Positions 19,833 through 62,875 of a DNA stretch of 64,000 nucleotides are shown here, one piece after another; position 1 is the first letter of the stretch; each line of letters begins with the position of its first letter. Below the pieces are notes generated by a model. The model worked only from the letters and a program-made list of their open reading frames with translations. It was not told where the DNA came from and did not search any database. This DNA is from an uncultured Gammaproteobacteria bacterium (lineage in GTDB: Bacteria > Pseudomonadota > Gammaproteobacteria > Pseudomonadales > Pseudohongiellaceae). Made by a program: the position numbers and the translations under genes. Where the stretch lies: positions 1-64,000 of the forward strand of contig CAJXIY010000006.1 in the NCBI GenBank assembly GCA_913054495.1. Reading direction: 5' to 3'.

Positions 19833-20300
19833 TCAACGATAGGATCCAGTTGCAGGTAGTTCTTCTTCCAGATCGCTAACCCGGGCGGCGATGATCTCGG
19901 AAGGTGGCAGGGCGCCGGCACCAAATGCAAATTTAAATTCGCCGTTTATCAAGCGACGACGATCGTCGGTAACCGCCCACCTCGCAATATAATAATCTGA
20001 GGCCGGTAGTTCGAATGGAATCAGGTAGACGAAGCTGTGGCTGAGGCGGCTGGGATCATATTGAAATCCAATATTGATCCATTCTTCTTCTGCTGTGTAC
20101 AAGGCCAATTTCAGTAATCGCACATCGACACGAAAACTCATCGTTATCATTTGTGGAGGATCTATGAGCACCGCGTCGTCCTGGGGAAAGGTGACACCCG
20201 GAGTCAGAATGCCGTGACTGTGTTGGGCATAGGCGTTCGTACTCAACAGCATCGTCAGAATCAGGCTGGTGGTGGTCATGAGGAATTGTCTGATATTCAC
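19833..20300 (-). CDS. Exported CopC-like protein without the usual copper motif
   Basis: A 155-residue exported protein. GTG at 20300 has AGGA seven bases upstream and gives a good signal peptide ending NAYA. The mature start QHSHG retains two histidines but is offset from the canonical N-terminal His. The fold markers are LIDPPQMITMSFRVDVRLLKLALYT and YYIARWAVTDDRRRLINGEFKFAFG, which align with the CopC domain but have DDRRR where CopC has ADGH. Copper binding is therefore doubtful. It is paralogous to the protein at 21445-22077. Confidence 0.7.
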   Translation of the reverse strand: MNIRQFLMTTTSLILTMLLSTNAYAQHSHGILTPGVTFPQDDAVLIDPPQMITMSFRVDVRLLKLALYTAEEEWINIGFQYDPSRLSHSFVYLIPFELPASDYYIARWAVTDDRRRLINGEFKFAFGAGALPPSEIIAARVSDLEEELPATGSYR

Positions 20301-20422
20301 ATTAACATCCTGCTTGCCAAGCTTTACCCATTTTAACAAGAATCATGGCCGCAGTCCCATAGCTCCAGCCCCGAAATGCCAAAGTAAGATGGCTTACAGA
20401 TCGGGCTGAAAGATACATGTCT

Positions 20423-21444: not shown

Positions 21445-22077
21445 ATGGTAGACAGTATGCAGCCAAGTCGTCGTCCAAGTGTTTTTCTGGCTTGCTTGCT
21501 TTTGTTTTACAGTGAGCCGGTGATACCGCAGGTCTCACATTCCGCAGCCTATCAGCAGGCCGCAGATAGTACAGGAATCGCGGCGAAAACAAAAACCTCA
21601 CCTGCTGACGACTCGGTGCTGGATGAGGCACCGAATTCCCTCGATCTGGAATTTCCCGAGGCGGTACGCCTGGTGAAGCTGACCCTGCGAAATGATCAGC
21701 GAGACTGGGTGGACATCAGCTTCCGCTATAACCCCGCCGTCGCTAAAAATTATTTGTGGAACTTGCCTGACCTGGCCAGTGCCACCTACTACACTGTGGA
21801 TTGGGCAGTCCTCGGGGGCAGCGAACAACTGGTGCGAGGCAGGTTTAGTTTTGCATTTGGAGCCGACGCCGACGCGCCTTCGTTAATCAGGGAAGCGGCA
21901 GCCATCTTGCTGGATATTCGTACCGGTGATGGAGATTCAACGACCCGGTCCGTTACCCCGCCGAGAACTCAAATCATTATCGATCGGGATCCACCGAATT
22001 ACGACCCGCCGTTTACTATCGATCTGGAGGAGGCAGCACAGCCCAGAAAGCCAGATTCACTCAAGGACTCTCCGTGA
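21445..22077 (+). CDS. Exported CopC-like protein with proline-rich tail
   Basis: A 210-residue exported protein. After a signal-like N-terminus (ATG 21445, or 21457 giving MQPSRRPSVF) the CopC-type domain reads SLDLEFPEAVRLVKLTL, DWVDISFRYNP and YYTVDWAVLGGSEQLVRGRFSFAFGAD. It aligns with the leftward protein at 19833-20300 and again lacks the N-terminal His and the ADGH motif of true CopC. A unique acidic, proline-rich tail of about 55 residues follows. Its 3' end overlaps the first of the 37-base repeats at 22065. Confidence 0.7.
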   Translation: MVDSMQPSRRPSVFLACLLLFYSEPVIPQVSHSAAYQQAADSTGIAAKTKTSPADDSVLDEAPNSLDLEFPEAVRLVKLTLRNDQRDWVDISFRYNPAVAKNYLWNLPDLASATYYTVDWAVLGGSEQLVRGRFSFAFGADADAPSLIREAAAILLDIRTGDGDSTTRSVTPPRTQIIIDRDPPNYDPPFTIDLEEAAQPRKPDSLKDSP

Positions 22078-22175: not shown

Positions 22176-23067
22176 GCCCGCCGTCGTCGGCCCGTGTCCA
22201 CAGCACATAAGTGCCTGGCTCTTCGAAGGTAGCTGTAATTTCATAAAGCCCGTCTTCCGGTGGCTCCGGCGGTAACCACAGCGGCCCCCAGGGAGAGTTT
22301 GCCGAGGTGCGAGTATCCTCCCAGGGCTTGGGCAATGGCGGATCGAAGATGACCTTGCCGGCGCCGCGATAAACATTCCAGGACAGGAACAGGCCGTTAA
22401 CTTTGCCCACGGTGATTCGGCTCGGTGGACGCAACATACGTGCCCGTAGTTGTTTGTCGGTGTTAGTAGATTCTCTTCTGCGCTTGGGTAAACCGTCGTC
22501 GGCAACATGGGTGATGAGGACAATAGGTTCGCCAACACGAGCCCTGCGAATATCGTCACCCCGTATCGTTACCACAGGAGGAATGTTAGATCTGGATTCC
22601 GGACTGCTGGTGCCGGCACCGAGGGAGCCCGTCTCTGAAGCGATGACCATATTGTCGACCAGATAGTCGTCCTTCAGTGTAGCGTAGGCCTTGCGTTCGA
22701 CACCATTAACATTGAGCGTCCAGACCAATTCCCGATCACCCCAGTCGGAGGGCACCGTCACTTCAAAATTAAAGCGGTTACGCCGTGGCAGGAAGTGGGT
22801 TGGCTGACCGCGATCGGCGGCGCCGGGAGAGAAGGAATTATTCGCGCCAATTTCCACATCGGGCTCTTCCAGCCAGTTTTCATTCATATAGCCGAACATA
22901 AAACTGAAGCTGCCGTCCGCATTGGGATGCCAGCCTTCATAGGCAGGTTCGACGTGTTGGCCGTTTTGATAGGTATCGGCGAGCGCCAGTTGAGGGCAAA
23001 CCAATAAAACCGCAACAAGCAGCAGAGCATTTACTCTGCTGCTTGCTTCAGTAGCTACCTTGTTCAT
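22135..23067 (-). CDS. Secreted beta-rich protein of unknown function
   Basis: A 310-residue exported protein starting at ATG 23067, 22 bases after the cytochrome/monooxygenase gene, so the two are probably one operon. The signal peptide ends LALA. The mature part has GWHPNADGSFSFMFGYMNENWLEE, RRNRFNFEVTVPSDWGDRELVWTLNVNG and a C-terminal Ig-like segment YEITATFEEPGTYVLWTRADDGG. This layout resembles partner proteins of exported copper/cytochrome enzymes, but I do not recognise a named family. Confidence 0.72.
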   Translation of the reverse strand: MNKVATEASSRVNALLLVAVLLVCPQLALADTYQNGQHVEPAYEGWHPNADGSFSFMFGYMNENWLEEPDVEIGANNSFSPGAADRGQPTHFLPRRNRFNFEVTVPSDWGDRELVWTLNVNGVERKAYATLKDDYLVDNMVIASETGSLGAGTSSPESRSNIPPVVTIRGDDIRRARVGEPIVLITHVADDGLPKRRRESTNTDKQLRARMLRPPSRITVGKVNGLFLSWNVYRGAGKVIFDPPLPKPWEDTRTSANSPWGPLWLPPEPPEDGLYEITATFEEPGTYVLWTRADDGGLFHDQYVTITVGP

Positions 23068-23089: not shown

Positions 23090-24529
23090 TCAAAGTGATG
23101 CCAGATCATCGCTCTCTTCATCATCGGACTCGGCAACGGGGGCGACCAGTGGTGCCAGACACAGAGGGCAGCCGATGACGTGATCGTTCGGTCCCAGGTT
23201 CAATACCCGGCGTCGCTCTGCCATGGCTTCGAAGAATTGATCATCGGTCATGGTGACGCGAATGCCCAGATCGATAAACATATTGGCTACCGAGCGGTTG
23301 CCGGAACCCTGCCAGTTGCGTGGGTCAGGCACATTCGGGTTGGTGTCGGTATTATTCATATAACCCACGATATGCAAGATAGTACCCTTAGGCAGCAAGG
23401 GGGCGGCGGCATCGGTATAGGGATAACCCCGCACCCAGTTGTGGTCATAACCCACGCAGGACAGCGTCTCAACCGTATAACCCCAAATTGCTTCCAGACA
23501 CATGCGTTCGCCTGGGGCGTGCAGATGTGGCTCGAAGGTAATAATCTTGGTGTGTTGACTCAGCACCGTGTAGGCATGCAATTCCTGAGCTCTCTCACCA
23601 CCCGCAATGCTGATGTCGACACCGTTCCCCAGGCCGATGAAGGTATTCTGGTAGGTCGGTTTGTAGTCTTTTTCATGGAAGCGAAAGCCGACTTCCAGAT
23701 GTCCGGTGGTATCACGGCCATTGGAGTGAAGATGAATGGAGTCAGAAACAATCGCTGTGCCGGCTTTCAACAAGCGGCCAGCACCCTCATCGAAAATGTC
23801 TGCGTTGCGGCCAACTTCATGGACCGGCCATGGTAGTGAGAGGCCAGGAATGCGTTCTCCGTTGTCGTCCAGTTCAGCAGTTCCCCAAATCATATGATGG
23901 AAGATATAGGCACCACCAACCGTCTCCCGTCCGGTGCCGGTTTGATGGTTGACATCATTGACTTCGACCACTTCTACCGATTTCACGTAGCGATCTTCGG
24001 CGAGGCCGATAGGGACCGAATTGATCTCGCCCCACCAGTCGGGTGTTCCAGCCAGCTTGGTTATTTCATCCAGAACCACGATCAGGTCCGGTTCGCCGGC
24101 ACCCCATTTGACGCTATCATCGAACACCAGTGGCGCCGGCGCATCGGCGGGATCACCCTTAGGGGTACCACTGCGAGCCCAAGTAGATATGGCGGCGAGA
24201 TCTGCATCGCTCAGAGAGGGGTCATCCTTGTAACTCTGAATGCCAATGTCTTTCTCCATATACCAGGGCGGCATGGCACCGGCACGATCACGCAGAGCAG
24301 TCTTGTATTCGATAAGTCCAGCGAAAGGGGCGACTTGATCGTAGCTCACCAGGGGCATGGGGCCCGCACCACCGAGCCGGTGACAATTTTGGCAGCTGCG
24401 CTGCAGAATTGGCTCGATGTCCTTGTGGAAGGTGATTTCGCCGGATTGGGCCATAAGCCCGGCAGGCGCCACCAGTGTGGCTGCCAGTGCGGCACCGCTT
24501 AACAGGGATTTCGCGGAAAAGATGCGCAT
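23090..24529 (-). CDS. Cytochrome c / copper type II monooxygenase-like fusion
   Basis: An exported 479-residue protein. After a signal peptide, an N-terminal cytochrome c domain carries one heme motif, CQNCH at 46-50. The rest resembles copper type II ascorbate-dependent monooxygenases (peptidylglycine hydroxylase fold): HHM at 211-213, HLH at 266-268, and PHLHAPGERM with H335, H337 and M343, which parallels the HxH...M copper site, then GYMNNTDTNPNVPDP. ATG 24529 fits AGGAG eight bases upstream. Probable function is oxygen-dependent C-H oxidation in the periplasm with the heme delivering electrons; the substrate is unknown. Confidence 0.75.
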   Translation of the reverse strand: MRIFSAKSLLSGAALAATLVAPAGLMAQSGEITFHKDIEPILQRSCQNCHRLGGAGPMPLVSYDQVAPFAGLIEYKTALRDRAGAMPPWYMEKDIGIQSYKDDPSLSDADLAAISTWARSGTPKGDPADAPAPLVFDDSVKWGAGEPDLIVVLDEITKLAGTPDWWGEINSVPIGLAEDRYVKSVEVVEVNDVNHQTGTGRETVGGAYIFHHMIWGTAELDDNGERIPGLSLPWPVHEVGRNADIFDEGAGRLLKAGTAIVSDSIHLHSNGRDTTGHLEVGFRFHEKDYKPTYQNTFIGLGNGVDISIAGGERAQELHAYTVLSQHTKIITFEPHLHAPGERMCLEAIWGYTVETLSCVGYDHNWVRGYPYTDAAAPLLPKGTILHIVGYMNNTDTNPNVPDPRNWQGSGNRSVANMFIDLGIRVTMTDDQFFEAMAERRRVLNLGPNDHVIGCPLCLAPLVAPVAESDDEESDDLASL

Positions 24530-27841: not shown

Positions 27842-28113
27842 CTAGGGAGCCTCTGATCAATTCAATGGCCACTCTGCAGGAGTCTGGCACGTGCTGCTGC
27901 AAGGCGGCGTGCGCGGGCAATGGCCATAGTCCTTGGCAAGTACGTCAACGCGGCAGCTGTGCGCGCCAGGCCCTGCCCGAAGGGGCTTACAGTCGATCCC
28001 GCTCTCATCGTTGTACTTCCTTGACAGGTCGACACATGCCTGCGAAAGTGCGCCTTGATATCGGAATCGGCTGTAAGCCAGAGTGGTCATTGAATTGATC
28101 AGAGGTTCCCTAG
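27842..28113. mobile_element. MITE-like element with 35-base inverted ends
   Basis: A 272-base element bounded by near-perfect inverted repeats, 27842-27876 and 28079-28113 (33 of 35 matching), beginning CTAGGGA and containing CCTCTGATCAATTCAATG. CTAG or TA at the tips may be the target duplication, as in IS5-type insertions. The interior has no credible transposase; reading frames through it are composition artefacts. It sits between divergent genes, 59 bases from the start of the DGxPD gene. Confidence 0.75.
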
Positions 28114-28172
28114 ACTGCAGCAGTCCGGCCAAAGGCTCAAATAGCTGCGCAATAATAATAACGGAGGCGAGT

Positions 28173-28985
28173 ATGATTTTTGTCCGATACCCACAAATTC
28201 ACCGCGTTTTAACAGGTTCGGTAGCGATCTTCCTGCTTGGCTTTAGCCTGCAAGTCGCGGCCCAGACAACGATTCCCCGTACCACCGACGGTAACCCGGA
28301 CTTCAACGGCATCTGGCAGGCGTTAGGCAGTGCCAATTGGGATATCGAACCCCATGCCGCAGATTTTGGCCCCGTGGTGGAACTCGCTGCCATCGGCGCG
28401 ATACCCGCGGGCCTGGGTATTGTGAGCGGTGGAGAGATACCTTACACCGTCGCGGCCAGAGCTCAACAACAGGCGAACAAGGCAGACTGGTTGGCCCTCG
28501 ACCCCGTCGTCAAGTGTTATATGCCCGGTATTCCGCGGGCGAATTACCTGCCGTTCCCTTTTCAGATCATTCAGTCTCCTGCGCACATAGTCGTGGCCTA
28601 TGAGTTCGCCAGCGCCAGCCGCATCGTTTATATGGATCAACCAGATTTTGAGGCGCCTCTGCTAAGCTGGATGGGGCATTCCAGAGGCCACTTCGAGGGC
28701 GATACCCTGGTGATCGATGTGACGGACCAGATGCCTGATACCTGGCTGGATCACGCCGGCAATCATCACACCGATGCCTTGAGGGTGACCGAGCGTTACA
28801 CCCATATAGGTCCCAACACCTTGATGTACGAGGCTACGCTGGAAGATCCTAACGTCTATACACGACCCTGGACGGTGAGTTTTCCACTCTATCGCCGACT
28901 CGACGAAAACATGCAGTTGCTTGAATTCAAATGCGTTGAGTTTTCCGAGGAATTAATTTATGGGCATTTGCGCAAGACCGATTAA
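28173..28985 (+). CDS. Secreted DGxPDxxGxW-family protein
   Basis: An exported 270-residue protein with a signal peptide ending QVAAQ and the family start TTDGNPDFNGIWQ. Other shared features are LPFPFQIIQSPAHIVVAYE, WMGHSRGHFEGDTLVIDVT and the closing ...TRPWTVSFPLYRR. The family is common and uncharacterised in environmental bacteria; its tandem GDTLVI(D/E) modules suggest a beta-rich extracytoplasmic fold. ATG 28173 has GGAGG six bases upstream. It overlaps the next gene, a paralogue, by 26 bases. Confidence 0.75.
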   Translation: MIFVRYPQIHRVLTGSVAIFLLGFSLQVAAQTTIPRTTDGNPDFNGIWQALGSANWDIEPHAADFGPVVELAAIGAIPAGLGIVSGGEIPYTVAARAQQQANKADWLALDPVVKCYMPGIPRANYLPFPFQIIQSPAHIVVAYEFASASRIVYMDQPDFEAPLLSWMGHSRGHFEGDTLVIDVTDQMPDTWLDHAGNHHTDALRVTERYTHIGPNTLMYEATLEDPNVYTRPWTVSFPLYRRLDENMQLLEFKCVEFSEELIYGHLRKTD

Positions 28986-29994
28986 GCTTAATAAACCCAA
29001 TCCAGGCAAGCTAACGGGCATGCTTTTGGCTGCCGGCGTTCTATGCTGCGGCGGGTCATTGCTTGCCCAGGAATCGAGTTGGCAACTATCCCGCACCATA
29101 GATGGTCATCCTGATTTTCAGGGAGTTTGGGCGAACAACAGCATCACTCCCCTGGAGCGAGCCGTGGGTTTCGAAAACCGCGAGCTGCTGAGCGATGATG
29201 AATACGCCCGCCTGCGTGCTGGCGTCGCGGAGATAACCGACGGTGGTGGGGATGCGCAATTTGGAGATGGATTTTTCGACGCCCTGGTGTCCGGCGAGGT
29301 GCAATCCTACGATCCTTCCACCGGCAACTATGATCAGACCTGGATGTCTCACAGAAACCTGGAGCGTCGCACTTCACTAATTGTCGACCCCGCTAACGGC
29401 AGACTGCCACCCTATACCGATGTCGCGGCAGCGAAAGTTACCGCCCGCCTCGAGCACATCGAGCAGCACCCGGCCGATTCCTGGACCGACAGGCCGCTAC
29501 AGGAGAGGTGTATCACCTATGGCATGCCTTACCTGCTGGCAGGTTATAACAGCTATTATCAGATCGTGCAGAGTAAGGACTACGTCGCCATTATTCAGGA
29601 AATGATTCATGACGTGCGCGTAATCCCGCTGATCCCTAAAAGTGCAATCGATGAAAAAATCAGGCTGTGGCACGGTGATTCGCGCGGCTACTGGGATGGA
29701 GATACCCTGGTAATCGAAACCGCAAATTTTTCCGATGCCAGTGATCTGCGAGGCTCCGCTGGCAAACGGGTATTTATGGAAAAATTTACCCGCACCGCCG
29801 CCGACAATCTACAGTATGAATTCACCATCGAGGACGCCAGCACCTGGACCGCCCCGTGGACAGCTGTCATCAACTACAGCAGCAGTGAAGATCCGATCTT
29901 CGAATATGCCTGCCATGAAGGCAACTACGGTCTCTCCGGGATACTGTCCGGTCATAGAGCGCAAGAGCAGGCGGCTAATAGCAACGGCAACTAG
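28960..29994 (+). CDS. Secreted DGxPDxxGxW-family protein, second copy
   Basis: An exported 344-residue paralogue of the preceding gene, with TIDGHPDFQGVW, RTSLIVDPANGRLPPYT, SYYQIVQSKDYVAIIQEMIHD, LWHGDSRGYWDGDTLVIETANF and the C-terminal YACHEGNYGLSGILSG. ATG 28960 lies inside the previous gene and gives a long basic N-region before the signal helix; ATG 29020 would give a shorter signal. The closest relative in the window is the leftward protein at 61862-62875, which shares the CHEGNYG ending. Confidence 0.75.
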   Translation: MGICARPIKLNKPNPGKLTGMLLAAGVLCCGGSLLAQESSWQLSRTIDGHPDFQGVWANNSITPLERAVGFENRELLSDDEYARLRAGVAEITDGGGDAQFGDGFFDALVSGEVQSYDPSTGNYDQTWMSHRNLERRTSLIVDPANGRLPPYTDVAAAKVTARLEHIEQHPADSWTDRPLQERCITYGMPYLLAGYNSYYQIVQSKDYVAIIQEMIHDVRVIPLIPKSAIDEKIRLWHGDSRGYWDGDTLVIETANFSDASDLRGSAGKRVFMEKFTRTAADNLQYEFTIEDASTWTAPWTAVINYSSSEDPIFEYACHEGNYGLSGILSGHRAQEQAANSNGN

Positions 29995-46864: not shown

Positions 46865-46892
46865 TTGATTAACCTTAGTTGATTAACCTTAG
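46865..46892. repeat. 14-base tandem duplication at a stop codon
   Basis: TTGATTAACCTTAG occurs twice in direct, gapless repeat; the second copy contains the stop codon (TTA on this strand) of the PQQ dehydrogenase gene. The repeat provides a second TAA in the leftward direction. Confidence 0.8.
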
Positions 46893-48535
46893 TCCCTTAA
46901 TCCAAAAGTGTAGACCACATTACCCGATGCCATGGACACAAACTGCTGGCCATTAACCGCGTAAGTAATCGGTGCGGCATGGACGCGCCTGCCCAGGGAG
47001 ATATGCCAGAGTTCTTCGCCGGTGGCCGCATCCAAGGCGAAGAAGTAGCCATCGGCACTGCCGGTAAATACCAGACCACCTGCGGTGGTGGTGATACCTG
47101 CAGAAGAGCGCGGCATGATCGGGAACTCCCATTCGATTTCCGCCGTGACCGGGTTGATGGCGCGGATAGAACTGTGGAAAGCATCCATGGGCTGTTTGTA
47201 ACTACCGCCACCACCGGTGAAACGCTCGCCAACTTCATATTCTTCATCACGCTTGAAGAATTCCTGTTCGCCATCGAAGGAGGTGACGTAGAAAAGTCCG
47301 GTCTGCTGACTATAGCCCGGTGAATACCAGTTGGTCCCCCCGGTGATAGGTGGCGATACCATAATGCCCTCGTAGGTGGGCTCCATGCCAGGCACTCGAA
47401 TCGGTCTGCCGTTGACGTCAAGACCCTGAGCCCAGGTCTGGGTGGCGAAGGGCTTGCCAATCAAGAAGCGTCCGTTGGTACGATCGATGGTATAGAAAAA
47501 GGCGTTGCGGTTGGCCCACATCATGACTTTTCGAGTGCGGCCCTCGAACTCGATGTCGGCGAGAATCGGCACCTGGATCGCGTCGTAGTCGTGCACATCG
47601 TGGGGCGTAAACTGGAAATGCCACACCAGTTCCCCGGTGTCGCCGTTCAGCGCCATGGCCGCGTCCGAATACAGGTTGTCGCCGAGACGGGCGTCTCCGT
47701 TCCAGTCTGGGCCGGGATTACCAGTGCCCCAGTAAACCAGGTTTTCATCTGGGTCATAGGCGCCGGTAATCCAGGTGGCGGAACCACCGGTTTTCCAGGA
47801 GTCACCGGACCAGGTGTCATTACCAGGCTCACCTTCTCCGGGAATCGTGTAGGTGCGCCATTCGAGTTCCCCGGTCTCGGCATTATAGGCATCGATGAAG
47901 CCACGGATGCCGAATTCGCCACCGGCGATGCCGGTAACGACCTTGTCTTTGACGATGAGGGGAGCTGCGGTCTTGCTATAGCCTTCCTCGTAGTTTGCAA
48001 CTGTTACATCCCATAACACGTTGCCGGTGCGGGCATCGATAGCCACCAGGTGTGCATCCAGGGTACTCATGTACAGGGTTTCACCGAGGATAGCCACGCC
48101 TCGATTATTACGACCGCAACAGATACGCAGGTCATCGGGCAGCTCATGATCATAACGCCAGTACTGGCGGCCGGTTGCTGCGTCAACGGCGACCAGGTTG
48201 CTAGGCGCCTCGGTGATAAACATGATGCCGTCGACAACCAGGGGCACAGTTTCGGCGCGATCGATGACTGGAATCTGGTAGGCCCATTTCAATTCCATTG
48301 TCGCCACATTTGAGGTATTGATCTGGTCCAGCTTGCTGTAGCGCTGGCTGTCCAGAGTGCCGGAATACATCAACCAGTTTTCCGGTTCGTCGCCGGCATT
48401 GAGAAGCCTCTCCCAGGTAATGGGAGTGAAGGCCGGAGTGATTACAGTCTCGAACGGGTCTTCCTGGGCAAATATTGGCATCGATAGGCATAGTGCAATC
48501 AATAGTGTCATCAACAGGCTTGCAATCTTATTCAT
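46889..48535 (-). CDS. PQQ-dependent alcohol dehydrogenase (quinoprotein)
   Basis: An exported 548-residue quinoprotein of the methanol/ethanol dehydrogenase family, an eight-bladed propeller that oxidises alcohols in the periplasm and passes electrons to cytochrome c. The signal peptide ends PIFAQ; the vicinal cysteines that stack on PQQ are in RICCGRNNRG; TGELVWHFQFTPHDVHDYDA holds the catalytic Asp; WANRNAFFYTIDRTNG and GGLVFTGSADGYFFALDAATGEELW are propeller blades. The catalytic segment has DYD rather than DYA, as in lanthanide-type enzymes. The cytochrome c gene ends two bases before its ATG. Confidence 0.92.
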   Translation of the reverse strand: MNKIASLLMTLLIALCLSMPIFAQEDPFETVITPAFTPITWERLLNAGDEPENWLMYSGTLDSQRYSKLDQINTSNVATMELKWAYQIPVIDRAETVPLVVDGIMFITEAPSNLVAVDAATGRQYWRYDHELPDDLRICCGRNNRGVAILGETLYMSTLDAHLVAIDARTGNVLWDVTVANYEEGYSKTAAPLIVKDKVVTGIAGGEFGIRGFIDAYNAETGELEWRTYTIPGEGEPGNDTWSGDSWKTGGSATWITGAYDPDENLVYWGTGNPGPDWNGDARLGDNLYSDAAMALNGDTGELVWHFQFTPHDVHDYDAIQVPILADIEFEGRTRKVMMWANRNAFFYTIDRTNGRFLIGKPFATQTWAQGLDVNGRPIRVPGMEPTYEGIMVSPPITGGTNWYSPGYSQQTGLFYVTSFDGEQEFFKRDEEYEVGERFTGGGGSYKQPMDAFHSSIRAINPVTAEIEWEFPIMPRSSAGITTTAGGLVFTGSADGYFFALDAATGEELWHISLGRRVHAAPITYAVNGQQFVSMASGNVVYTFGLRD

Positions 48536-48537
48536 GC

Positions 48538-49347
48538 TTAGATCTCCTTTCTCAACGAGAACATATAGGCGACAAGGTCGTCCAGGTCGCTCTCGGTCAA
48601 TGTCTGTGCATAGCTTGGCATGGTCGATTCCTCGACCCGTTCGGCGGATTCGATCCGGGTCTTGGGGTATGACCAGAGATTAAAATCGTTGTCCATGATG
48701 CGCAGGGAAAAGCTGTCTTCATTCATGCGCAGACCTTCCCTGTAGCTGCCGTCGGTGCCGGTTATCTTCATGGTCCACCAGCGCGGCGCTACGTCTTCAT
48801 GGGGGGTGATGAGGTCGCTCATCAACTCCTCCGGATCGCGACGCTCGCCGACGCGGCTCAAGTCAGGTCCCAGCCGTCCACCTTGGCCGCTAACCATGTG
48901 ACAACTGTCGCAATCGCCGCGGCCGGTGAACACCATGGCGCCGGACGTTGCCGAGCCGCTCAGATTAACATTGGTTGGATCGATGCTGAGAGCATCCACG
49001 TAAGCGACTAGTTGCCACACCTGCGAGTCGGGCAAATCGGCCGCCACTGGCAGCATGGCCGTGCCGGCAATGCCTTCCCGAAGGATATTAAAGATGCCCA
49101 CATTAGTGCTGGCGCGGGATAGTCTACCGGTGAGGTCCGGTGCCCCAGTCTCGTCGTTGCCCTTGGCATCGAAGCCATGACAGCGGGAACATTGCCGTTC
49201 GAAGTAACGTTGGCCCTGGCCGATGTCGTAGCCGGTGTTGTAGAGATTGCCTGCATCTTCCGCCATAGCGGGCAGGCCAGAGAGGAAAATACTGATTGCC
49301 CCCGATGCCAGCAACCATTTCCACCAAAACCTTGAGTTAAAGCCCAT
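48538..49347 (-). CDS. Exported diheme cytochrome c, partner of PQQ dehydrogenase
   Basis: A 269-residue periplasmic cytochrome with a signal peptide ending PAMA and two heme c sites, CSRCH at 53-57 and CDSCH near 150. ATG 49347, six bases after AGGAG, is preferred over a GTG two codons upstream. It is immediately upstream of the quinoprotein gene on the same strand and should carry its electrons toward the terminal oxidase. Confidence 0.88.
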   Translation of the reverse strand: MGFNSRFWWKWLLASGAISIFLSGLPAMAEDAGNLYNTGYDIGQGQRYFERQCSRCHGFDAKGNDETGAPDLTGRLSRASTNVGIFNILREGIAGTAMLPVAADLPDSQVWQLVAYVDALSIDPTNVNLSGSATSGAMVFTGRGDCDSCHMVSGQGGRLGPDLSRVGERRDPEELMSDLITPHEDVAPRWWTMKITGTDGSYREGLRMNEDSFSLRIMDNDFNLWSYPKTRIESAERVEESTMPSYAQTLTESDLDDLVAYMFSLRKEI

Positions 49348-49465
49348 GCTCACTCCTTTGTATTTGTTGTGTTGGTGAGGGAAGCTAGTGTAACACCCGC
49401 ATGAATCGTTGCAATTAGCGTGTGGCAGCCGGTCCGGTGGTCACCGGGCTTGGGTCGCCAGCGTT

Positions 49466-61861: not shown

Positions 61862-62875
61862 TTACTGTGCGATTGAGCGCTCTTCGCCCTTCGCTGCCAT
61901 CGATTCCAGGCGTCTGGCACCGGCCAGAATGCCGATAATGCCATAGTTACCTTCGTGGCAGGCATATTCATATATCGGTTCGTCCAGCCTGGAGAGCGGG
62001 TACTCGCCAGACCACTGTGCAGTATAGACAGAAGAGTCGTCGACGGTGAAACCGTAGATGATCTTGTTGTCGGACTCACGCCTGAAGGTCTCAATTACCG
62101 TCAGATTTTCGGTGGGTGCACCACGATAATTCATCCAGTGATTGTAATTCCTGGTTTCGACGATGAGCGTGTCACCGTCCCAACGGCCTATGGAATCCCC
62201 CATCCACTTCTGATGTGTCGTGGAAGCCGGGCTGCGCTCATCGGATATCTTGATAATACGAGCATCGTGAGCCATTTCCACGATGATGCTGACGTAGCCC
62301 GGCGACTGCACGATTTGCATGTGGCTGTTGTACATGACCGGTGACATAACCGGGCCGGAACTACTGCCGAATGCAAGCAGGCAGCGTTCGCCCAAGCCGC
62401 GACCCTCGGGTCCATCGTTGCGGTGGGGACTGTTGGCCCGGAGTTCACGCATGCGATCCCGAAAACCGGCGACCCGCTCTGGGATACGGCCATTGGCTGG
62501 ATCGATAATTGCGGAGGTGCGAAATTCACCGTCTATCGTGGGCAGAAACATGCCGCGATCGGTCCAGAACAGGTCATAGTTGCCAACCGGTGGCAGCGCC
62601 TTCAGGTCGGGAGCAGGACGGTTTGGATCCAGTGGCTCATTGTCTGCTTCCACCGCCTGCTGGGCACGGTGTTCCAGTACCAACGCTTCTGCTTCAGTGT
62701 AAGCCTGCTTGCTGCCCAAATCACGGGGACGCTCAAAAGGCATCACCGTGTGATGCTTCCAGTTGCCTTGTAAATCGGGCACACCCCATTCCGTCAACGG
62801 AGTCTGAAATTCCTGGGCAGAGGCGCTGGCAGTCAGAGCCAGAGCGCCCACCAGTGCTGAAAAACGCGTGTTCAT
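61862..62875 (-). CDS. Secreted DGxPDxxGxW-family protein, third copy
   Basis: An exported 337-residue protein with signal peptide ending SASA and a variant family start (TEWGVPDLQGNW). It shares MSPVMYNSHMQIVQSPGYVSIIVEMAHD, KWMGDSIGRWDGDTLIVETRNYN and YACHEGNYGIIGILAG with the 28960 protein, so it is the nearer relative of that copy. Its upstream region (62881-62960) is very AT-rich and probably contains the promoter. Function unknown. Confidence 0.75.
   Translation of the reverse strand: MNTRFSALVGALALTASASAQEFQTPLTEWGVPDLQGNWKHHTVMPFERPRDLGSKQAYTEAEALVLEHRAQQAVEADNEPLDPNRPAPDLKALPPVGNYDLFWTDRGMFLPTIDGEFRTSAIIDPANGRIPERVAGFRDRMRELRANSPHRNDGPEGRGLGERCLLAFGSSSGPVMSPVMYNSHMQIVQSPGYVSIIVEMAHDARIIKISDERSPASTTHQKWMGDSIGRWDGDTLIVETRNYNHWMNYRGAPTENLTVIETFRRESDNKIIYGFTVDDSSVYTAQWSGEYPLSRLDEPIYEYACHEGNYGIIGILAGARRLESMAAKGEERSIAQ

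Follow-up and report, generated by a model that had tools for sequence, protein, structure and literature searches.

A probable heme c-containing dicopper monooxygenase of the PHM/DBH superfamily and its Ig-like partner in an uncultured Pseudohongiellaceae bacterium

The P0001 gene (positions 23090..24529, minus strand) lies in the window, a 64,000-nucleotide stretch of contig CAJXIY010000006.1 from an uncultured marine gammaproteobacterium of the Pseudohongiellaceae. It encodes a 479 aa protein in which a predicted heme c domain is joined to a PHM-fold, dicopper monooxygenase-like domain (as judged from the open reading frame, an AlphaFold2 model and a homolog alignment). P0001 is quite probably a dicopper monooxygenase of the PHM/DBH superfamily that works in the periplasm and carries its own electron donor. 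The fold, the two ligand sets, the fusion and the linkage to a partner gene were established computationally; copper and heme loading, the route and direction of electron transfer, and hydroxylase activity are inferred. An earlier note, made from the sequence alone, had proposed the fusion of heme c to a PHM-fold dicopper domain. This proposal is supported by the fold search on the predicted structure, the in-register ligands of DBH and PHM, and the invariance of these ligands. The partner gene, the expansion of paralogs and the PAL-like lyases described below go beyond that note.

Gene, signal peptide and heme c domain

The P0001 frame has 480 codons (24529 to 23090, minus strand) and starts with an ATG that has the sequence GAGGAG approximately 8 nt upstream. 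Open frames of 202-218 aa on the opposite strand of the same stretch look like shadow frames. Residues ~1-28 (24446..24529, minus strand) form a putative signal peptide, as the earlier note had read, on the basis of both the sequence pattern and a helix predicted at residues 7-25 in the AlphaFold2 model; the cleavage site was placed by eye near the junction of AGLMA and Q. At the opposite end, the motif GCPLC (C454-P-L-C457; 23159..23170, minus strand) lies in a tail of low prediction confidence. It is present in 105 of 150 homologs, is restricted to the P0001 clade, and is a possible metal or disulfide site.

The heme c attachment motif CQNCH was found at residues 46-50, where it had been claimed (C46-Q-N-C49-H50; 24380..24394, minus strand), with C46, C49 and H50 invariant in the 150 homologs. 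M86, likewise invariant and part of an M86-P-P motif (24266..24274, minus strand), is probably the axial heme ligand, a role assigned with class I cytochromes c as the model. P0001 therefore combines the two features of that class, a CxxCH motif and a distal candidate axial Met. The Pfam search returned PF13442 below its cut-off (20.2 bits compared to 27). All intact family members found in the window's genome carry the heme motif.

PHM/DBH fold and copper ligands

The AlphaFold2 model of P0001 was built on the family alignment (pLDDT 79.6, pTM 0.75). When this model was used in a Foldseek search, the best 31 PDB matches were all PHM or DBH structures (E-values: 4e-10 to 3e-6), with a target TM of 0.51-0.65 for PHM structures. 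P0001 is thus predicted to contain the double beta-sandwich catalytic core of PHM, a two-copper unit for oxygen activation that is otherwise familiar from hormone enzymes of animals. The earlier note would have abandoned its claim had the predicted structure lacked a jelly-roll core; at the fold level, this test left the claim intact.

With the P0001 sequence itself, a single-sequence PDB search found no oxygenase, the NCBIfam search gave no match, and neither PF01082 nor PF03712 was matched in Pfam, a result that concerns model sensitivity and not structure. Family profiles reached the known enzymes. A profile of the 26 paralogs of the window's genome matched human DBH (E-value: 0.0022), a 55-row family profile matched DBH (4zel; E-value: 7.6e-4) with the Cu histidines aligned, and a profile of more PF03712-like members matched PHM (E-value: ~0.008) with the HH, HYG and HxH (HTH) motifs in register. 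PF03712 matches 8 of the 26 paralogs at E<0.1, two sites being above the curated cut-off, and the family is at the edge of this model.

In PHM, three histidines bind CuH, His107 among them, and ascorbate gives one electron to each of the two coppers (PMC6123673). Profile alignments to both DBH and PHM place the corresponding histidines of P0001 at H211-H212 (PHM H107/H108; 23894..23899, minus strand) and H266 (PHM H172; 23732..23734, minus strand). These three residues, which belong to the HHM (211-213) and HLH (266-268) motifs correctly identified in the earlier note, are present in 150/150 homologs and provide the HH + H set of a CuH site. The HxH + Met set of CuM is provided by H335-L-H337 (PHM H242/H244; 23519..23527, minus strand) and M417 (PHM M314; 23279..23281, minus strand), each again in 150/150 homologs. 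The methionine segment, in which PHM GGTSSDEM (M314) falls on the family DEM (M417 in P0001), is separate and weak (-2.3 bits); M417 is equated with M314 because the segment is colinear, the DEM motif is common to the paralogs and the Met is invariant. The motif PHLHAPGERM of the earlier note is present, although it spans residues 334-343 rather than 335-343 and its histidines are H335 and H337. M343, which had been put forward as the CuM methionine, is conserved in just 125 of the 150 homologs compared to all 150 for M417, and was ruled out as a ligand by the paralog and 150-homolog alignments.

Conservation and distribution of the family

Alignment of the 150 homologs (~24-84% identity, three phyla) leaves just 17 invariant columns, 10 of which are the four heme ligands (C46, C49, H50 and M86) and the six copper ligands. 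Most other His, Met and Cys columns are variable. The 26 paralogs of the window's genome share 22 invariant columns, including C46, C49, H50, M86, H211, H212, H266, H335, H337 and M417, with the ligands in the same order as those of PHM and DBH. Judged from these alignments, conservation of the P0001 motifs is far above chance.

The window's genome has ~27 copies of the family, a figure derived from 30 matches (24-100% identity), some of which are fragments of one gene. All 25 searched genomes of the window's genus have family matches (11-30 per genome), while none were found in 13 genomes of other families of the same order. Among 369 sampled genomes of the class, only 5 besides the window's own have a full-length match; the named relatives are Pseudohongiella-like or Pseudomonadales MAGs. 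Gemmatimonadota and Acidobacteriota include homologs that are 53-65% identical, and 42 of 199 sampled Acidobacteriota genomes have a family match. Match counts are highest in a Pseudohongiella-like genome (36) and in Vicinamibacteria-type Acidobacteriota (43-47), with 2-19 in Gemmatimonadota; the genomes compared are largely MAGs. A quick family tree shows phylum-mixed branches at several depths, with unsure deep nodes and long branches, and is compatible with a history of ancient paralogy and transfer.

One subfamily lacks CuM (L024:557-2242, on C65 of the window's own genome, with orthologs L190-L202, L206 and L215). Its members keep the heme, CuH and Met ligands, and in every ortholog seen both CuM histidines are replaced by Arg/Asn (Arg/Ser in the window's genome); the catalytic sister subfamily has the full ligand set. 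Not every family member therefore need be an oxygenase, and some probably have a different role. P0001 itself could in principle have such a role, with its PHM fold and copper sites serving a periplasmic copper/redox sensor, a copper store or a heme-copper electron-transfer protein, and the CuM-less paralogs and the very large copy number would suit this reading. It is nevertheless unlikely for P0001, which has a complete CuM set including the Met, as do all 150 aligned homologs; moreover, a sensor or store would have no need of all six PHM ligands and a heme.

Ig-like partner protein

The gene directly downstream of P0001 (22135..23067, minus strand) encodes a secreted protein of 310 aa with two Ig-like beta domains, identified as a partner from adjacency, structural modelling and co-evolution. 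The P0001 stop is at 23090 and the probable partner ATG is at 23067. A partner gene nearly always adjoins relatives of P0001: among 83 adjacent partner-family pairs, the partner is downstream in 77 and upstream in 6. Most of the 12 loci that lack it end at contig edges, and true absences are few (e.g. L039, L108 and L162). All 12 partner sites in the window's genome adjoin a family member, and the partner never occurs alone. Distance matrices of family member and partner are correlated for 11 paralog pairs of the window's genome (r=0.86, Mantel p=1e-4) and for 82 family-partner pairs (r=0.95); the two genes have therefore duplicated together.

The partner was modelled with a pLDDT of 92. Pfam assigns it to no family and no conserved metal site is evident. 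An enzymatic function was considered and rejected, as the fold search gave just generic tandem Ig-like proteins at low TM. The likeliest role of the partner is that of a scaffold or of a subunit that presents the substrate. At one locus (L040:5946-12007, on C47 of the window's own genome), four heme c-PHM paralogs form a tandem array, and only one partner gene is present, at an end of the array.

Substrate positions

PHM residues Q170, R240 and Y318, which bind the substrate carboxylate, correspond to S264, E333 and L421 in P0001, which thus lacks the residues expected of PHM proper (EC 1.14.17.3). E333 (23531..23533, minus strand) was placed opposite R240 by profile alignment and a position check. 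Because of these replacements a peptidylglycine substrate is unlikely, and P0001 is probably not a peptide amidator. One may speculate that an acidic residue beside CuM suits a neutral or cationic group. Position 333 is E, Q, R, L, G or A across the paralogs, and such variation at substrate positions suggests that the expansion of the family reflects different substrates.

A thioredoxin-like/heme c/PHM fusion (L021:1611-3359, on C121 of the window's own genome) keeps the equivalents of Q170, R240 and Y318 and, from its sequence, is the paralog with the best claim to a genuine peptidylglycine-type substrate. These equivalents are also kept in the L024 group; two sister subfamilies retain the Q/R/Y positions, one of them being the CuM-less one. 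The thioredoxin-like members (e.g. L019, L020, L021 and L025) have an N-terminal AhpC/TSA-like domain, matched just under the cut-off, and no partner gene was found for them.

PAL-like lyases

PAL-like NHL propeller proteins are a recurrent neighbour family, encoded at 11 of 83 module loci (about seven of them independent); such genes also occur at L030:7710-8777, L116, L142 and other loci. A PAL-like protein aligns with the PAL of animal PAM in a single stretch of nearly full length (193 bits; E-value: 4.6e-56), compared to at most 86 bits per stretch for the generic NHL proteins listed alongside. Three zinc histidines of PAL are aligned in the PAL-like proteins; in subgroup L030 the third is Glu. 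The window's genome has ~17 secreted PAL-like sites (L219-L236), the weakest of which are perhaps generic NHL proteins.

PAL-like genes were found in 25 of 25 genomes of the genus and in none of 13 genomes from the order's other families. Their copy number correlates with that of the PHM-like family (rho 0.83; 0.76 after accounting for genome size, phylogeny being uncorrected). In the window's genome, 3 PAL-like genes lie within 6 kb of modules where 1.8 are expected, which is not significant. PAL-like genes were accordingly rejected as close module neighbours, co-distribution being the stronger evidence. The syntenic locus of P0001 itself has no PAL-like gene, and P0001 is not a fused PAM, as its polypeptide ends after the PHM-like core and includes no PAL domain.

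P0001 might be regarded as a bacterial PHM proper that works with a separate PAL-like lyase to amidate peptides or cleave N-acylglycines, with heme in place of ascorbate. The near-complete match to the PAL core with its three aligned histidines, the shared distribution and copy number of the two families, and the Q/R/Y equivalents of the L021 paralog are in keeping with such a pair, yet it is very unlikely for P0001, given S264, E333 and L421, a syntenic locus devoid of PAL-like genes and the weak enrichment of these genes near modules.

A broader and tentative suggestion, itself doubtful, is that the family as a whole includes a split, heme-driven counterpart of PAM in the periplasm. N-alkyl, N-acylglycine or similar bonds would first be hydroxylated by the expanded heme c-PHM enzymes, which have either an Ig-like partner or a thioredoxin-like domain, and then be cleaved by the secreted PAL-like zinc lyases. 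The bacteria would in this way use dissolved organic nitrogen as food, and the CuM-less paralogs would be regulatory or electron-relay partners. If so, PAM chemistry would occur in bacteria with cytochrome c and not ascorbate as the reductant. A review of PAM covers the eukaryotic enzyme and makes no reference to bacteria (PMC6529398).

Copper-handling genes at the locus

The order of genes around P0001 is syntenic across the genus: AKR, two DUF6644, SURF1, P0001, the partner (sometimes two), CopC, thioesterase, CopC, nitroreductase and beta-lactamase-like. The SURF1-family protein upstream of P0001 (24756..25544, minus strand) has the domain PF02104 (E-value: 9e-27). The first CopC-domain protein, predicted to function in copper handling (21445..22077, plus strand), has the domain PF04234 (E-value: 5e-9). 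The second is CopC-like (19833..20339, minus strand); its PF04234 match is sub-threshold (20.7 compared to 23.3 bits), and its mature N-terminus was read by eye as QHSHG. CopC genes also adjoin non-syntenic homologs (L109, L115, L117, L120, L123 and L139), which supports a copper cofactor. That P0001 is a cytochrome c whose PHM-like domain is degenerate, purely structural and without part in any copper chemistry would fit its lack of recognition by the Pfam copper-monooxygenase models, but is extremely improbable in view of the CopC neighbours and the perfect conservation of the ligands over great divergence.

Proposed model and comparison with known systems

The proposed model for P0001 as a monooxygenase is as follows. 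The N-terminal heme c would accept electrons one at a time from the pool of respiratory or periplasmic cytochrome c and pass them to CuH (H211, H212 and H266), which would in turn supply CuM (H335, H337 and M417). O2 would be activated at CuM for C-H hydroxylation of a small or extracellular substrate, with heme replacing ascorbate as the reductant. The adjacent Ig-like protein would be a dedicated partner (a scaffold, substrate-presenting or docking subunit), and copper would be supplied by the neighbouring CopC proteins.

P0001 resembles the PHM domain of PAM in fold, as its best PDB matches indicate, and in its six copper ligands, which have the same order and similar spacing (211-212, 266, 335-337 and 417, compared to 107-108, 172, 242-244 and 314 in PHM). 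It differs from PHM in its N-terminal covalent-type heme c (predicted), its bacterial host, an identity of ~10% and the lack of the carboxylate-binding triad, and from PAM in having an Ig-like partner in place of a fused PAL. The bacterial PAL-like proteins share the propeller and Zn histidines of the PAL domain of PAM (3FVZ), but are separate secreted proteins. Human DBH (4ZEL) has the same fold, is the best profile match by sequence and has its Cu histidines aligned with those of P0001; DBH carries a DOMON domain and uses ascorbate, whereas P0001 has a heme c. In CDH-LPMO and cytochrome c-tethered NirK, a heme domain feeds a copper active site. These systems are analogous only, as their copper folds are unrelated and their sites are mononuclear or T1/T2.

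The combination of heme c and PHM domains may already be represented in protein-family databases. A literature search that did not extend to bioRxiv or to the bulk of subscription journals turned up no article on such fusions in bacteria. A survey of cuproproteins lists PHM and DBH in the eukaryote column only (PMC7435645). In Pseudohongiella-like gammaproteobacteria and in Acidobacteriota a single genome can have dozens of family members, which together with the expanded PAL-like lyases would represent a large, unassigned reservoir of C-H oxygenases acting outside the cytoplasm. The fused heme c donor would offer a natural test of electron entry into the CuH/CuM pair, and the frequent matching partner protein makes the likely electron supply and chemistry of P0001 testable.

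Other gene families near the modules

Secreted proteins with the motif 'GHPDFQGVW' are encoded at 28083-28985, 28960-29994 and 61862-62875 of the window and in ~45 copies in the genome; Pfam assigns them to no family. The secreted 'PDLQGVW' family was rejected as a module associate, its proximity not being significant (p~0.05-0.07). PQQ dehydrogenases are found near 19 of the 83 module loci. Coupling to these enzymes, in which a hydroxylated product would be oxidised as an alcohol in the periplasm, was likewise rejected, given ~50 copies in the genome and a proximity that is not significant (p~0.06). The ~50 PQQ-dependent dehydrogenase sites in this 3.4 Mb genome are unusually many; one example in the window (46889-48535) is accompanied by a cytochrome c gene (48538-49353).
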